This document shows positions 21,750-26,924 of a DNA stretch of 64,000 bases, piece by piece. The translations under genes and the position numbers were made by a program. The notes under the pieces are model-generated. The model was not told the origin of the DNA. It did no database searches and saw nothing but the letters and a program-made list of their open reading frames with translations. How positions within the stretch are numbered: position 1 is the stretch's first letter; each line of letters starts with the position of its first letter. Source of the DNA: Paludisphaera soli (GTDB taxonomy: Bacteria > Planctomycetota > Planctomycetia > Isosphaerales > Isosphaeraceae); NCBI RefSeq assembly GCF_011064595.1, contig NZ_JAALJI010000002.1, forward strand, positions 1-64,000, written 5' to 3'.

Positions 21750-22235
21750 ATGAGCACGGGGCCGCTGGGGAGATTGTTGCTCGTCGAGGACGAGAACGTG
21801 CTGCGCCGGCTCGTCCACCAGTTCCTCTGCCTCGAGAACTACGAGGTGGAGCCGGTCGAGGACGGACAGGCGGCGGTCGACGCCTATGCGAGCCGGGGGC
21901 CGTTCGACGTGATCCTCATGGACCTCAACCTCCCGGTGCTGCCGGGCGTCGAGGCCTGCCGGCGGATCAAGTGGATGAACCCCGCCCAGCCCTTCCTCGT
22001 CTGCAGCGCGGCGATCCTGGACCACCACGTCGAGGCCCTGCACGCGATCGGCGTCCGCGAAACCCTCGGGAAGCCTTACCATCCCACGGAGCTGCTGACG
22101 CGGATCCGGTCCCTGATGGGGGCCTCGATCCCCTTGCGGGCGGACGCGGCCTCGTCGGTCCGACCGTGGCGGCCGGACGCGGCGGCTTCAGCTCGAGGGC
22201 CGTCCGCCTTGTCGGAAGCTCGCGTGTTGGAGTAA
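21750..22235 (+). CDS. Single-domain response regulator
   Basis: 161 residues from ATG 21750, with a purine-rich stretch (AAGGATGGGGAG) upstream. It is a receiver domain: acidic pocket Glu13-Asp14 (LLVEDEN), phosphoacceptor Asp58 in VILMDLNLP, a Ser in VCSAAI at the switch position and the conserved Lys in TLGKPY. After about residue 125 the tail is Ala/Arg/Ser-rich and probably disordered, and there is no output domain. It must signal through protein contact, like CheY-type regulators. No histidine kinase is next to it. Confidence 0.88.
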   Translation: MSTGPLGRLLLVEDENVLRRLVHQFLCLENYEVEPVEDGQAAVDAYASRGPFDVILMDLNLPVLPGVEACRRIKWMNPAQPFLVCSAAILDHHVEALHAIGVRETLGKPYHPTELLTRIRSLMGASIPLRADAASSVRPWRPDAAASARGPSALSEARVLE

Positions 22236-22346
22236 GCTGAGTGATCGTGCGCGGTGGGGCGGGACGGACCGTCGCCCATCGCGAGCCACATCGCAAGGCC
22301 TGGCCTTGCCGCCTGACACTTTTCGGAAGATGCGAGGGACGGTTTC

Positions 22347-22880
22347 ATGGCTGGGAAACCGCTGAATCGACTGGAACTGCGACGCCAAAGCGAGGCCGCC
22401 GAGCCTCTCGACCCGATGGAGGACGAGACCGACGCGGTCGTCGAGGACGCCGACGACGAAGAGGTCGTCGTACGCCCCAAGAAGAAGGCCAAGGCCCCGG
22501 CGAAGACCAAGGCCAAGAGCACCCGCGCCGCCAAGCCCGCCGCCCGCATGAAGATCGTCTGGGTGGTCATGAACGACGCCTACAAGGCCGTCGGCACCTT
22601 CGAGTACAACCAGCGCGAGGCCGCCGAAGCCCGCGCCGCCGAGCTGACCGCCAAGGGCAAGGGGACGCACTTCATCCAGCGGACCAAGGAAGAGATGCCG
22701 GCCGACGCGCCGGGCATCGGCGCCCTGATCCCCCGCCCCGAGGTCGCCCCCTCCCGCGCCAAGGCCGCCGCCAAGGTGGTCAAGGAGGTCGAGGCCGTCG
22801 TCGAGGAAGAGATCGAGGAGGATGACGACGACGACGAGGTCGAGGCTGACGTCGAAGACGACGCCGACGACGAAGAGTAA
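22347..22880 (+). CDS. Low-complexity basic/acidic protein, planctomycete type
   Basis: A 177-residue protein of unknown function in three parts. The N-terminal 60 residues mix an acidic run with a Lys/Ala-rich run (PKKKAKAPAKTKAKSTRAAK) resembling histone-H1-like tails. The middle (about 70-120) is a small folded-looking module (MKIVWVVMNDAYKAVGTFEY, HFIQRTKEEMPAD). The C-terminal 40 residues are almost all Glu/Asp/Val. The Lys/Ala run suggests nucleic-acid contact, and the acidic tail could regulate it; both are inference. It has no signal peptide or Cys, and no co-directional gene lies within 200 bp. Confidence 0.75.
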   Translation: MAGKPLNRLELRRQSEAAEPLDPMEDETDAVVEDADDEEVVVRPKKKAKAPAKTKAKSTRAAKPAARMKIVWVVMNDAYKAVGTFEYNQREAAEARAAELTAKGKGTHFIQRTKEEMPADAPGIGALIPRPEVAPSRAKAAAKVVKEVEAVVEEEIEEDDDDDEVEADVEDDADDEE

Positions 22881-23114
22881 TCCGCTCCCGTCCGGCCGTC
22901 CCGCCCCCTCCCTTCGCGCACCCGCCTCGACCACGGCCCTCGTGGTCGAGGCCGCACCTTCCGCACGCACGCCCTCCCCTCGCCGACTTCCGCGGGTTCC
23001 CGCTCGCATCGGCGGATCGTTCGGGATACGCTGGAGTTCCTCTCCCAGACCGCCCATCCGGCCTCGGCCCCGCGCGCGAGGCTTCGAACGATTCCAACCG
23101 AGGAACCCGCCGCG

Positions 23115-26100
23115 ATGCTCTTCTCGTCGGTCCTGATGCTCGGCCTCCTCCCCTCCCTCCCGGCGCAGGCCCCCACGTCCAGGCCGGTCGACGACCTGGC
23201 GACGGTCGCCGAGCGGAGCGATTTCAAGGCCACGGCCCGCCACGAGGACGTGGCCGCGCTCGTTCGCAAGCTCGCCGAGGCGTCGCCGAACGTCGTCGCG
23301 ACGGAGCTGGGCCGCTCGGTCGAGGGTCGCTCCCTCCCCATGCTCCTCATCGCCGATCCCCCCCTGAAGACGCCGGCCCAGGCCGCGGCCTCCGGCAAGC
23401 TGATCGTCCTGGCGATCGGCGACATCCACGGCGGCGAGGTCTGCGGCAAGGAAGGGCTCCTCATGCTCGTCCGCGAGCTGGCCGCCGAGCCCCACCCGGA
23501 GCTGCTGAAGGACCTGATCCTCGCCGTCGTCCCCCTCTATAACGCCGACGGCAACGAGCGGATCGCCCGGGACAACCGGCCGGGCCAGGTCGGGCCCGAG
23601 GAGGGCATGGGCGAGCGAGGCAACGCGCGGGGGCTGGACCTCAACCGCGACTTCATCAAGCTGGAGGCCCCCGAAACCCGCTCGCTTGTCAAGTTCCTCA
23701 ACGAGTGGAATCCGCACCTTTTCATCGACACCCACACGACCAACGGCTCGCACCACCGCTACACGATCACTTACGACGGCTCTCGGAACCCCGCGGGCGA
23801 GCCCTCGCTGATCCAGTACGCGCGGACGAAGCTCTTCCCTTCGCTCACGAAGGCGTTCGAAGAGTCGACGGGGCTGCAGACTTACTACTACGGCAGCTTC
23901 GGCGGCGACCACGACCGCTGGGAGAGCTTCCCCGCGTTCGGCCGGTTCGGCACCAACTACGTCGGCCTGCGGAATCGGATCGGCGTCCTGTCGGAAGCCT
24001 ACGCGTACGCCCCGTACAAGACTCGCGTGCTAGCGACCCGAGACTTCGTCCGCGAGTGCCTGAAGTACGCCTCCGCGAATAAAGATGAGATCAAGAAGCT
24101 CCTGGACGACGCTCGAAAGGCGGCGACCGACGACGCGCCGGCGAGTCCGCGTCGCGTCGCCCTCCGCACCAAGGCCCGGCCCCTGGCCGACGCCGAGCCG
24201 ATCCTGGGCTACGTCGAGAAGGAGGAGGACGGCCGCCGCATCGCCACCGAGGAGCCTCGCGACTATCCCGCGAAAGTCCTGGTCGACTTCGAGGCCGTCG
24301 AGTCCGTGGACCGTCCGTTCGCCTACCTCCTGGCCCCGGACCAGTCCGAGATCGCCGCCCTCCTCCAGCGGCACGGGATCGACGTGCAGGAGCTGCGCGA
24401 GGATCTCGACCTGGACGTGGAAGTCTACAAGGTGGACGCGGTCGGACGGCCCGAATCGTCGGGCTGGGATCGCCAGGACGTGCTCGAACTCAAGGTCACG
24501 CCGAGGTCCGAGGCCCGGCGGATCGCCGCCGGGACGCTCGTGGTGAAGGACGCGCAGCCGCTCGGAGCGCTCGCCGCTTACTTGCTGGAGCCGCGTTCCG
24601 AGGACGGGCTCGCCACCTGGAAGCTCTTCCCCGGCCTGAGGTCGGGCGAGGACTTCCCCGTCCTTCGCCTGGCCGGCAAGCCCGACCTGCTGACGGCCCG
24701 CGCCCGCGACTACGCGGAGCCCAAGTCGGGCCTGCCGATCCGCCTCGACGAATCGGGGAGGGTGGACGGCAACTTCTCCGGCTCGACCGTAAGCATCGAA
24801 TGGATCGACGACGAGCACTGGTTGCGGTCGAGCCGCGACGGCGCCTTGAAGGTCGAGGCCCTGACCGGCCGCACGTCGCCGTTCGCGTCGACGGACCAAC
24901 TCGTCCAGGGGCTCAAGCGCATACCCGGCCTCGATGAGAAGACCGTCGCGGATCTCGCCAAGCGACTGGCCGCGGGCGTCGGCCCAGCCGGACGGTTCGG
25001 TCGCGGCCGGATCCAGCTCGATCCGGCGCGGAAGGCGGTGCTGTTCGAGCACGAGCACGACCTGTACCACGTCGCGCTCGACGGCTCGTCGGGCGTACGG
25101 CTCACGAGCGCCCCCGGCGACGAGACCGACGCCCAGTTCAGCCCGGACGGCCGCCGCGTGAGCTTCGTCCGCGACTTCGACCTGCACGTCGTCGACGTTG
25201 AGGGGGCCGAGCGGGCGCTCACGACCGGCGGCAAGGACGACCTGCGGCGAGGACGGGCCGACTGGGTCTATTTCGAAGAGATCTTCAACCGATCGTGGGC
25301 GGCCCACTGGTGGAGCCCGGACTCCCGGCGGATCGCCTTCCTGGAGTTCGACGACGCCGAGGTTGGCTCCTTGACGATGCTCCACGACGAAAAGTCCCCC
25401 CGCGAGGTGGAGGTCAATCGCTACCCCCGATCCGGCGAGCCCAACCCTCGCGTGCGGCTCGGCATCGTCCCCGCGCAGGGCGGGCCCGTGCAATGGGCCG
25501 ACCTGTCGGGCTACTCGGCCGAGGCCTTCCTCATCAGCGGCGTGAGCTGGAAGCCCGACTCGAAGTCCGCGCTCGCCTGCGTCCAGGACCGCGTCCAGAC
25601 CTGGCTCGACCTGCTGGAAGTGCCCGTCGAGGGGGAGAAGCCACGGGTCCTCTTCCGCGACCGGACCAAGGGGTGGGTCGCCGACCCGACCGCCCCGAGC
25701 TTCCTGGACGACGGCTCGTTCCTCTGGTTGAGCGAGCGCGACGGCTGGAAGCACCTCTACCACTACGCGGCCGACGGCTCGCCGAAGGGACGGCTCACGG
25801 AGGGGGAGTGGGAGGTCCGCTCGCTCCAGCGGGTCGACGGCGCGACCGGCGAGGTGACGTTCCTCGGCACCAAGGACGCTTCCACGTCCAGCCAGCTCTA
25901 CAAGGTCCGGCCGGGGGCGCCCGTCGAGCGGATCACCTCGGGCCTGGGGAGCTACCAGACGACGCACAGCCCCGACGGCCGCCATTTCGTCGCGACCTGG
26001 TCCGACCTCTCGACCCCCTCGCGGGCGAAGCTCCACGCCGCCGACGGCTCGGTCGTGCGGACGGTGGACTCGAACCCGGTCCACAAGATCCGGGAGCACC

Positions 26101-26924
26101 GGTTCGGGCCTCGCGAGCGGTTCCAGATCCCGGCCCGCGACGGTTTCCCGCTGGAGGCCGAGCTGATCCTCCCGCCCGACCTGGACCCGAACGTCAAGCA
26201 TCCGGTCTGGTTCACGACCTACGGCGGTCCCCACACGCCGGTCGTCAACGACACCTGGGCGAACGGCCGCGTCTGGGACCAGGGGCTCGCCTCGGAGGGA
26301 TTCGTGGTCTTCCGCATCGACCCCCGTCCCGCCAGCGGCAAGGGGGCGGCCTCGGCCTGGACCGCCTACCGAAAGCTGGGGCTCCAGGAGTTGGAAGACA
26401 TCAAGGATGCGATCGCCTGGCTCAAGCAGAAGCCTTACGTCGACGGGACGCGGATCGGGATGACCGGCCACAGCTACGGCGGCTACATGACCGCCTTCGC
26501 GATGACCCACTCCGACCTGTTCGCCTGCGGGATCGCCGGGGCCCCGGTCACCGACTGGCACGACTACGACTCGATCTACACCGAACGCCTGATGGGCCTG
26601 CCGCAGGACAATCCCGAGGGCTACAAGAACTCGTCGGTGGTCGAGGCGGCGAAGAATCTCAGCGGAAGGCTGCTCATCGTCCATGGCGCGGTCGACGACA
26701 ACGTCTCGGTGCGGAACACCATGCGGCTCGTCGAGGCCCTTCAGGACGCCGGGAAGGATTTCGAGCTGATGATCTACCCCGGCTCGCGGCACGGGATCGC
26801 GAGCGGCCACTACGGCAAGCTGATGATCGACTTCATCCGCCGCAACCTGGCGACCGCCAGGCCCGCCCCGCCCTCCGCCCCGACGTCCGGGGCGGCGCCG
26901 GCCTCGATCTTCGCCCATCCTTGA
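23115..26924 (+). CDS. Double peptidase: M14 carboxypeptidase fused to S9 prolyl-oligopeptidase/DPP IV
   Basis: One uninterrupted 1269-residue frame with a signal peptide (VLMLGLLPSLPAQA). Residues 40-340 are an M14 zinc carboxypeptidase: zinc ligands His105 and Glu108 in GDIHGGEV, NRD at 177-179 and His207 in IDTHTTNG. Residues 340-600 look like the M14 C-terminal extension. From about 640 to 1000 there is a DPP IV-type beta-propeller (AQFSPDGRRVSFVRD, WWSPDSRRIAFLEFD). The C-terminal alpha/beta hydrolase has Ser1120 in GHSYGGYM, Asp1194 in GAVDDNV and His1226 in GSRHGIAS. Every catalytic residue of both enzymes is present, so both should be active on exported peptides. A strong hairpin at 26955 ends the unit. 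Confidence 0.9.
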   Translation: MLFSSVLMLGLLPSLPAQAPTSRPVDDLATVAERSDFKATARHEDVAALVRKLAEASPNVVATELGRSVEGRSLPMLLIADPPLKTPAQAAASGKLIVLAIGDIHGGEVCGKEGLLMLVRELAAEPHPELLKDLILAVVPLYNADGNERIARDNRPGQVGPEEGMGERGNARGLDLNRDFIKLEAPETRSLVKFLNEWNPHLFIDTHTTNGSHHRYTITYDGSRNPAGEPSLIQYARTKLFPSLTKAFEESTGLQTYYYGSFGGDHDRWESFPAFGRFGTNYVGLRNRIGVLSEAYAYAPYKTRVLATRDFVRECLKYASANKDEIKKLLDDARKAATDDAPASPRRVALRTKARPLADAEPILGYVEKEEDGRRIATEEPRDYPAKVLVDFEAVESVDRPFAYLLAPDQSEIAALLQRHGIDVQELREDLDLDVEVYKVDAVGRPESSGWDRQDVLELKVTPRSEARRIAAGTLVVKDAQPLGALAAYLLEPRSEDGLATWKLFPGLRSGEDFPVLRLAGKPDLLTARARDYAEPKSGLPIRLDESGRVDGNFSGSTVSIEWIDDEHWLRSSRDGALKVEALTGRTSPFASTDQLVQGLKRIPGLDEKTVADLAKRLAAGVGPAGRFGRGRIQLDPARKAVLFEHEHDLYHVALDGSSGVRLTSAPGDETDAQFSPDGRRVSFVRDFDLHVVDVEGAERALTTGGKDDLRRGRADWVYFEEIFNRSWAAHWWSPDSRRIAFLEFDDAEVGSLTMLHDEKSPREVEVNRYPRSGEPNPRVRLGIVPAQGGPVQWADLSGYSAEAFLISGVSWKPDSKSALACVQDRVQTWLDLLEVPVEGEKPRVLFRDRTKGWVADPTAPSFLDDGSFLWLSERDGWKHLYHYAADGSPKGRLTEGEWEVRSLQRVDGATGEVTFLGTKDASTSSQLYKVRPGAPVERITSGLGSYQTTHSPDGRHFVATWSDLSTPSRAKLHAADGSVVRTVDSNPVHKIREHRFGPRERFQIPARDGFPLEAELILPPDLDPNVKHPVWFTTYGGPHTPVVNDTWANGRVWDQGLASEGFVVFRIDPRPASGKGAASAWTAYRKLGLQELEDIKDAIAWLKQKPYVDGTRIGMTGHSYGGYMTAFAMTHSDLFACGIAGAPVTDWHDYDSIYTERLMGLPQDNPEGYKNSSVVEAAKNLSGRLLIVHGAVDDNVSVRNTMRLVEALQDAGKDFELMIYPGSRHGIASGHYGKLMIDFIRRNLATARPAPPSAPTSGAAPASIFAHP

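Follow-up and report, generated by a model that had tools for sequence, protein, structure and literature searches.

A genuine fusion of an M14 carboxypeptidase and a DPP4-type S9 peptidase, widely kept among planctomycetes and probably working as an exported pair of separable modules

Bacterial dipeptidyl peptidases IV (DPP IV) of family S9, such as those of Pseudoxanthomonas mexicana (5yp1) and Stenotrophomonas maltophilia (2ecf), share the fold, the Ser-Asp-His triad and the double Glu with one half of a 1269-residue protein of Paludisphaera soli, whose gene lies in the 64,000-nucleotide window analysed here (the whole stretch from position 1 to 64,000 of contig NZ_JAALJI010000002.1). However, both solved proteins are free enzymes, whereas the window protein carries a whole M14 enzyme ahead of its DPP4 fold. 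This M14 part has the HxxE...H zinc site, the NR pair and the catalytic Glu in common with carboxypeptidase N (2nsm), domain II of carboxypeptidase D (1h8l) and carboxypeptidase M (1uwy), which we take to be M14 enzymes of the N/E type, but differs from them in having its own C-terminal domain and in being fused to S9. Several peptidase units per chain also occur in carboxypeptidase D and in angiotensin-converting enzyme (ACE), where they are repeats of one family, while the fusion described here combines two unrelated families of opposite end preference. Each half has relatives that stand alone. Stand-alone M14 proteins of planctomycetes, Ignavibacteriota and Bacteroidota (L106, L109, L112 and L123-L142; L codes denote loci, G codes genomes and f codes families) consist of M14 and the same C-terminal domain without an S9 half, at 35-57% identity and in stop-to-stop frames of 525-636 codons (479 in L109, which is cut by its contig end). 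S9 orthologues that stand alone occur in Acidobacteriota and planctomycetes (L092, L096, L097 and L201-L206); they match nearly the whole DPP4 half at 40-44% identity and have their own signal-like start, with neither M14 nor the C-terminal domain. In agreement with the initial annotation, which knew of no characterised example of the combined protein, no description of an M14-DPP4 fusion was found in the open-access literature searched, a scope outside which most subscription journals fall; in the passages considered, neither PMC10206079 nor PMC6000758 concerns such a fusion. Both families are known and it is their combination that is new, though domain databases may already contain such an architecture. 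In this locus two unrelated exopeptidase families are united in one chain that is likely exported, an arrangement that is old and widely kept, and may be relevant to protein scavenging by planctomycetes and to compact enzymes hydrolysing proline-rich peptides.

The gene is an open reading frame of 1269 codons with an ATG start and zero internal stops, and its GC content at codon positions 1/2/3 is 0.68/0.47/0.93, a composition typical of coding sequence. Three Pfam domains score above their gathering cut-offs, namely Peptidase_M14 (PF00246, residues 48-222, E 4.4e-19), DPPIV_N (PF00930, residues 649-968, E 6.9e-76) and Peptidase_S9 (PF00326, residues 1058-1234, E 6.1e-48). From the N- to the C-terminus the layout is signal peptide, M14 domain, M14-family C-terminal domain, variable joint and complete DPP4-type S9 peptidase (Table 1). 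The initial annotation had placed two complete catalytic sets in one polypeptide uninterrupted by a frameshift, and this was borne out: H105, E108 and H207 of M14 and S1120, D1194 and H1226 of S9 are all exactly where they had been assigned, and relatives share the same frame. We also located E294 in the motif LSEAYAY, N177-R178, E721-E722 and Y1036, with which the usual residue sets of the two families are complete. From M14 enzymology we assume that E294 is the general base, that N177-R178 is the carboxylate-binding NR pair and that R155 is the equivalent of Arg127; E721-E722 is presumably the double-Glu motif of DPP4 that holds the substrate N-terminus, and Y1151 and Y1155 are presumably the tyrosines of its S1 pocket. 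With these roles, N177-R178 and E721-E722 argue for true exopeptidases. The features of DPP IV (MEROPS S9B type) are present as a propeller, an S9 hydrolase with Ser-Asp-His and the double Glu, and those of an M14 metallocarboxypeptidase as the HxxE and His ligands, the fold and the presumed catalytic Glu, NR pair and Arg127 equivalent.

A search for the combined M14, PF00930 and PF00326 architecture, which the initial annotation had proposed, found it in many relatives. Five congeners have one frame across both halves at 69-81% identity. Among named records, Planctomycetales bacterium 71-10 (L072) is the nearest found, at 75% in its best segment, and Aquisphaera insulae (L087; 60% identity), which is placed in the Isosphaeraceae, carries the fusion too. 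In the protein's own family, 45/45 genomes give some match when the whole protein is the query, the matches being mostly S9 paralogues where the fusion is lacking, and the M14 half is matched in 28 of the 45: in 24 of these M14 and S9 share a frame (some contig-cut), in three M14 stands alone and in one there is a contig-edge piece. Across the class, the M14 half is matched in 106/397 genomes, 72 of them fused and 28 with a stand-alone M14 and no fusion, while the other six comprise three M14 contig-edge pieces, two cases (G243 and G267) in which DPP4 is accompanied by the last part of the M14 C-terminal domain alone and one unclassified genome (G252). At the level of the phylum 102/392 genomes match, of which 98 are new; 36 of these were classified and 10 are fused. 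Fused genes fall into 12 family codes when the class genomes and the 36 further phylum genomes are taken together, and we assembled 77 distinct full-length fusion rows, the window included, all in a single frame. Three fused matches hold a stop codon, which sits at the very end since their open frames extend to residue 1245. A single contig scan with six short peptide patterns, which is a weak probe, showed fusions only in records whose titles name planctomycetes. Plasmids gave 61 matching records, each covering at most 80% of the query, the 10 rows listed being S9 alone. The fusion is genuine, widely kept among planctomycetes and evolutionarily old. That two genes were joined through a sequencing or assembly error, a concern named in the initial annotation, has next to no chance of being true: we found nothing in its favour, and the same single frame recurs in the congeners and in 72/397 class genomes, including assemblies of few contigs (G067 with 1, G001 with 3, G031 with 5 and G040 with 6). 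The companion concern, that relatives always encode two separate proteins at this locus, was likewise rejected: the halves do occur alone, but none of the 20 stand-alone M14 loci considered below showed an S9 match nearby.

Conservation of the catalytic residues among the 77 fusions (Table 1) was complete or nearly so. In the S9 half no catalytic or double-Glu residue is replaced, and Y1151 and Y1155 are each present in 76/77 with a gap in the remaining row. In the M14 half the zinc ligands and the base are all intact in 74/77, and the presumed substrate-site residues N177, R178 and R155 are kept in 74, 75 and 75 rows, respectively. The ratio of nonsynonymous to synonymous substitution rates (dN/dS), calculated for five stretches of the window gene against the five congeners, was 0.18-0.31 for M14, 0.20-0.41 for the C-terminal domain, 0.21-0.38 for the propeller (DPPIV_N) and 0.14-0.24 for S9; the joint (residues 521-560) gave 0.3-2.5 and was the sole stretch to approach or exceed 1 against some of the congeners. 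By this measure both enzyme halves are under purifying selection. Pairwise distances in M14 and S9 are correlated (r = 0.83, 76 rows; 0/999 permutations as high), which speaks for shared history and not for contact. Both centres are probably active in the window protein.

The structural models agree with this anatomy. An AlphaFold 2 (AF2) model of residues 45-1240 reached a mean predicted local distance difference test score (pLDDT) of 88.3 and a predicted template modelling score (pTM) of 0.85, and residues 45-520 modelled alone reached 89.6 and 0.90. Residues 539-1240 (495-1196 of the model) align to the full DPP4 structure 5yp1_C with a Z score of 39.6, a root-mean-square deviation of 2.5 and 35% identity over 667 aligned residues. 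The first part of the 45-520 model has a carboxypeptidase fold (2boa_A, Z 24.4, deviation 3.0, 246 aligned), with many ties at Z about 22-24 and about 12-22% identity among the 50 rows listed; by sequence, the nearest enzymes are carboxypeptidases D, N and M (E 1e-8 to 4e-6). The C-terminal domain is beta-rich in the AF2 model, the fold-comparison rows covering model residues 1-283 only. A transthyretin-like C-terminal domain is characteristic of the N/E (regulatory) subfamily of M14. Residues 330-520 are common to the stand-alone M14 relatives, including those of Ignavibacteriota and Bacteroidota, and the end of the domain, here called CTDb, is well conserved, with the consensus RPxAYL...LQRHGIxVEELRED...LLEPxSEDGLxTWNFFD; CTDb has no Pfam match in the window protein, and its profile matches in 110/397 class genomes. 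A signal-like N-terminus, taken as a 12-residue hydropathy peak of >=1.8 before M14, is found in 86/86 fused frames as compared with 3.1% of 1961 control windows, so that the proposal that the protein is secreted stands in the form that export is likely. The calculated mass of residues 20-1269 is about 138 kDa.

We consider it likely, on these grounds, that the gene encodes two exopeptidases exported as a tethered pair in a single chain, which is a real and old fusion of separable modules. After export to the periplasm or out of the cell, the DPP4 half would release N-terminal Xaa-Pro or Xaa-Ala dipeptides, as the residues of its family suggest, and the M14 half would remove amino acids from the C-terminus of peptides there. 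The two steps would be complementary in the complete digestion of proline-containing peptides, and the linkage would supply both exopeptidases in equal amounts and in the same place. The two centres would act as separable modules, and no sign of substrate passing from one to the other was found.

Evidence for separability comes from both halves. Stand-alone M14 proteins end at the joint and stand-alone S9 proteins begin there: most of the 10 stand-alone S9 orthologues shown have a signal-like start and, almost immediately after it, sequence that matches from about residue 545 onwards, an additional linker being present in L202. The fusion accordingly seems to unite two mature enzymes, each of them complete. 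In the class, 20 of the 28 genomes with a stand-alone M14 contribute the set L123-L142, and the other eight hold more distant M14s. No S9 match (E 1e-12) lies within about 5 kb of the M14 gene in 20/20 of these loci, where the contig allows; in 7/20 genomes, which are drafts, a close S9 orthologue (42-46%) is on another contig. In the M14 tree some stand-alone genes (L123-L128, L033 and L034) branch from within groups of fused rows, which implies that the S9 half can be lost. Outside the 20-locus set, L256 (G574) is an exception with adjacent genes: its stand-alone M14 frame is followed, after a gap of about 50 bases, by an S9 frame that belongs to another subgroup, which makes the locus a two-gene counterpart of the fusion. 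Conversely, nine frames (L089, L100, L196, L197, L200 and L327-L330) have kept CTDb and DPP4, and neither tblastn nor blastp found an M14 catalytic domain in them. In these forms CTDb remains in one frame with DPP4, and all but L196 have, by eye, their own signal-like start ahead of it; the CTDb match of L200 is weak (26%, E 5e-4). In L196 (G267:C220:1-3678) a single open frame fills the 3,678-base contig, and in it a different S9 peptidase (residues 21-588, Ser/Asp/His by eye) takes the position of M14 before CTDb (residues 623-744) and the contig-cut DPP4 half (residues 781-1226). This looks like replacement of M14 by a second serine peptidase, although an assembly error is possible in a single draft contig. 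Intact fusions, fusions with replaced M14 residues, M14-less forms and separate halves provide natural controls with which the value of the linkage can be tested.

The trees bear on the direction of these changes. In a 56-row S9 tree the nine M14-less rows sit among fused rows and require six changes, every one of which is imposed by starred branches; the count alone does not separate gain from loss, and it is the nesting that leads us to read the change as loss of M14. Between fused and alone, the M14 tree needs 12 changes. As to the origin of the fusion, the S9 trees contain two fused lineages (f5/f6/f22/f30, and the remainder) which Acidobacteriota stand-alone orthologues separate or are tied with, at weak support, a pattern that would fit one event or two. 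In family f2, the stand-alone M14 lies near the first fused lineage (f5/f6/f22/f30), and its S9 that stands alone falls within the second.

Several observations weigh against a tethered pair in which both enzymes matter, or speak for a loose coupling of the halves. The M14 half resembles enzymes of solved structure only weakly in sequence (best E 1.2e-8), its catalytic domain has apparently disappeared within the fused clade on six or more occasions, and among the matches listed, 13/20 stand-alone-M14 genomes lack a close S9 orthologue and show only partial paralogues of 32-37%. Moreover, three fusions (L184, L185 and L270) have replaced M14 catalytic residues at several sites each: all three are pseudo-M14s with changed zinc ligands, the base being changed as well in L184 and L185, and L270 keeps E294 and R178. 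The losses of M14 and these three fusions indicate that two-ended action is not essential. They lend some weight to an explanation that we nevertheless regard as unlikely, in which DPP4 is the working enzyme and M14 is becoming an accessory, with CTDb kept for folding, docking or anchoring and the carboxypeptidase activity optional and decaying. The nine M14-less rows fit this explanation, and so do the three fusions with replaced M14 residues when set against zero S9 replacements in the 77 rows; the repeated pattern in which the catalytic M14 is gone and CTDb is kept suggests that CTDb became useful to DPP4. On the other hand, M14 is intact in nearly all fusions and under constraint near the window, and in 28/106 class genomes it stands alone, in part nested among fused rows, so that elsewhere it is S9 that goes missing.

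The initial annotation went further than a tethered pair and proposed a self-contained degrader; if this is taken to mean that both centres act on the same peptide, the evidence for loose coupling of the halves tempers it. In its strongest form, in which both centres, arranged by the shared C-terminal domain, would consume one captured proline-rich peptide without release, we think this improbable; direct coupling on one peptide is possible but unsupported, because the halves separate in evolution in both directions. If it were true, M14-less lineages would be expected to specialise in trimming from the head or to adopt another peptidase, as L196 hints. We hold as quite improbable that the chain is a pro-form that is exported and cut at the joint into two independent exopeptidases. 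The joint is hypervariable (the stretch of residues 498-547 is 47-58 residues long across the 77 rows, and dN/dS is raised as given above), and the stand-alone halves end and start at it. However, no conserved cleavage site was visible in the 20 of 77 joint rows inspected, CTDb is in one frame with DPP4 in the M14-less forms, and the model is confident over most of the chain. A tethered pair of separable exopeptidases remains the reading that we prefer.

Table 1. Features of the M14-DPP4 fusion gene, in coordinates of the window
Feature	Position	Strand	Evidence
Whole gene, M14-DPP4 fusion, 1269 aa	23115..26924	+	Open reading frame, Pfam, one frame in relatives too
Signal peptide, residues 1-19, probably cleaved after AQA	23115..23171	+	By eye and hydropathy
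M14 zinc carboxypeptidase domain, about residues 45-325	23247..24089	+	PF00246, AF2 model, fold match
Zinc ligands H105 and E108 (HxxE)	23427..23438	+	Each kept in 75/77 fusions
Third zinc ligand H207	23733..23735	+	Kept in 74/77 fusions
E294, presumed general base	23994..23996	+	Kept in 75/77 fusions
M14-family C-terminal domain, about residues 330-520	24102..24674	+	Found in stand-alone M14 relatives
CTDb, end of M14 C-terminal domain, about residues 396-522	24300-24680	+	Stays on DPP4 in M14-less forms
Joint between enzymes, about residues 515-540, variable	24657..24734	+	dN/dS, stand-alone boundaries
DPPIV beta-propeller half, about residues 539-985	24729..26069	+	PF00930, DPP4 fold match
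E721-E722 double Glu	25275..25280	+	77/77 fusions
S9 alpha/beta-hydrolase domain, about residues 986-1245	26070..26849	+	PF00326, fold match
Catalytic Ser1120	26472..26474	+	77/77 fusions
Catalytic Asp1194	26694..26696	+	76/77; remaining row (L021) ends at contig edge
Catalytic His1226	26790..26792	+	76/77; remaining row (L021) ends at contig edge

The order of neighbouring genes is common, in part, only to the congener L072 and is otherwise inconsistent among L072-L101. Upstream of the fusion, an amidohydrolase gene (PF07969; 19456-21147, plus strand) has a signal-like start by eye; loci L072-L101 showed no relative of this gene. In family f3, another S9 gene lies directly upstream, on the same strand, of the fusion or the M14-less form (L071, L145, L156, L329 and L330). 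Two antisense open frames run over the window gene, at 24030-26918 (962 aa) and 22188-23912 (574 aa), both on the minus strand; such long frames are probably a by-product of GC-rich third codon positions.

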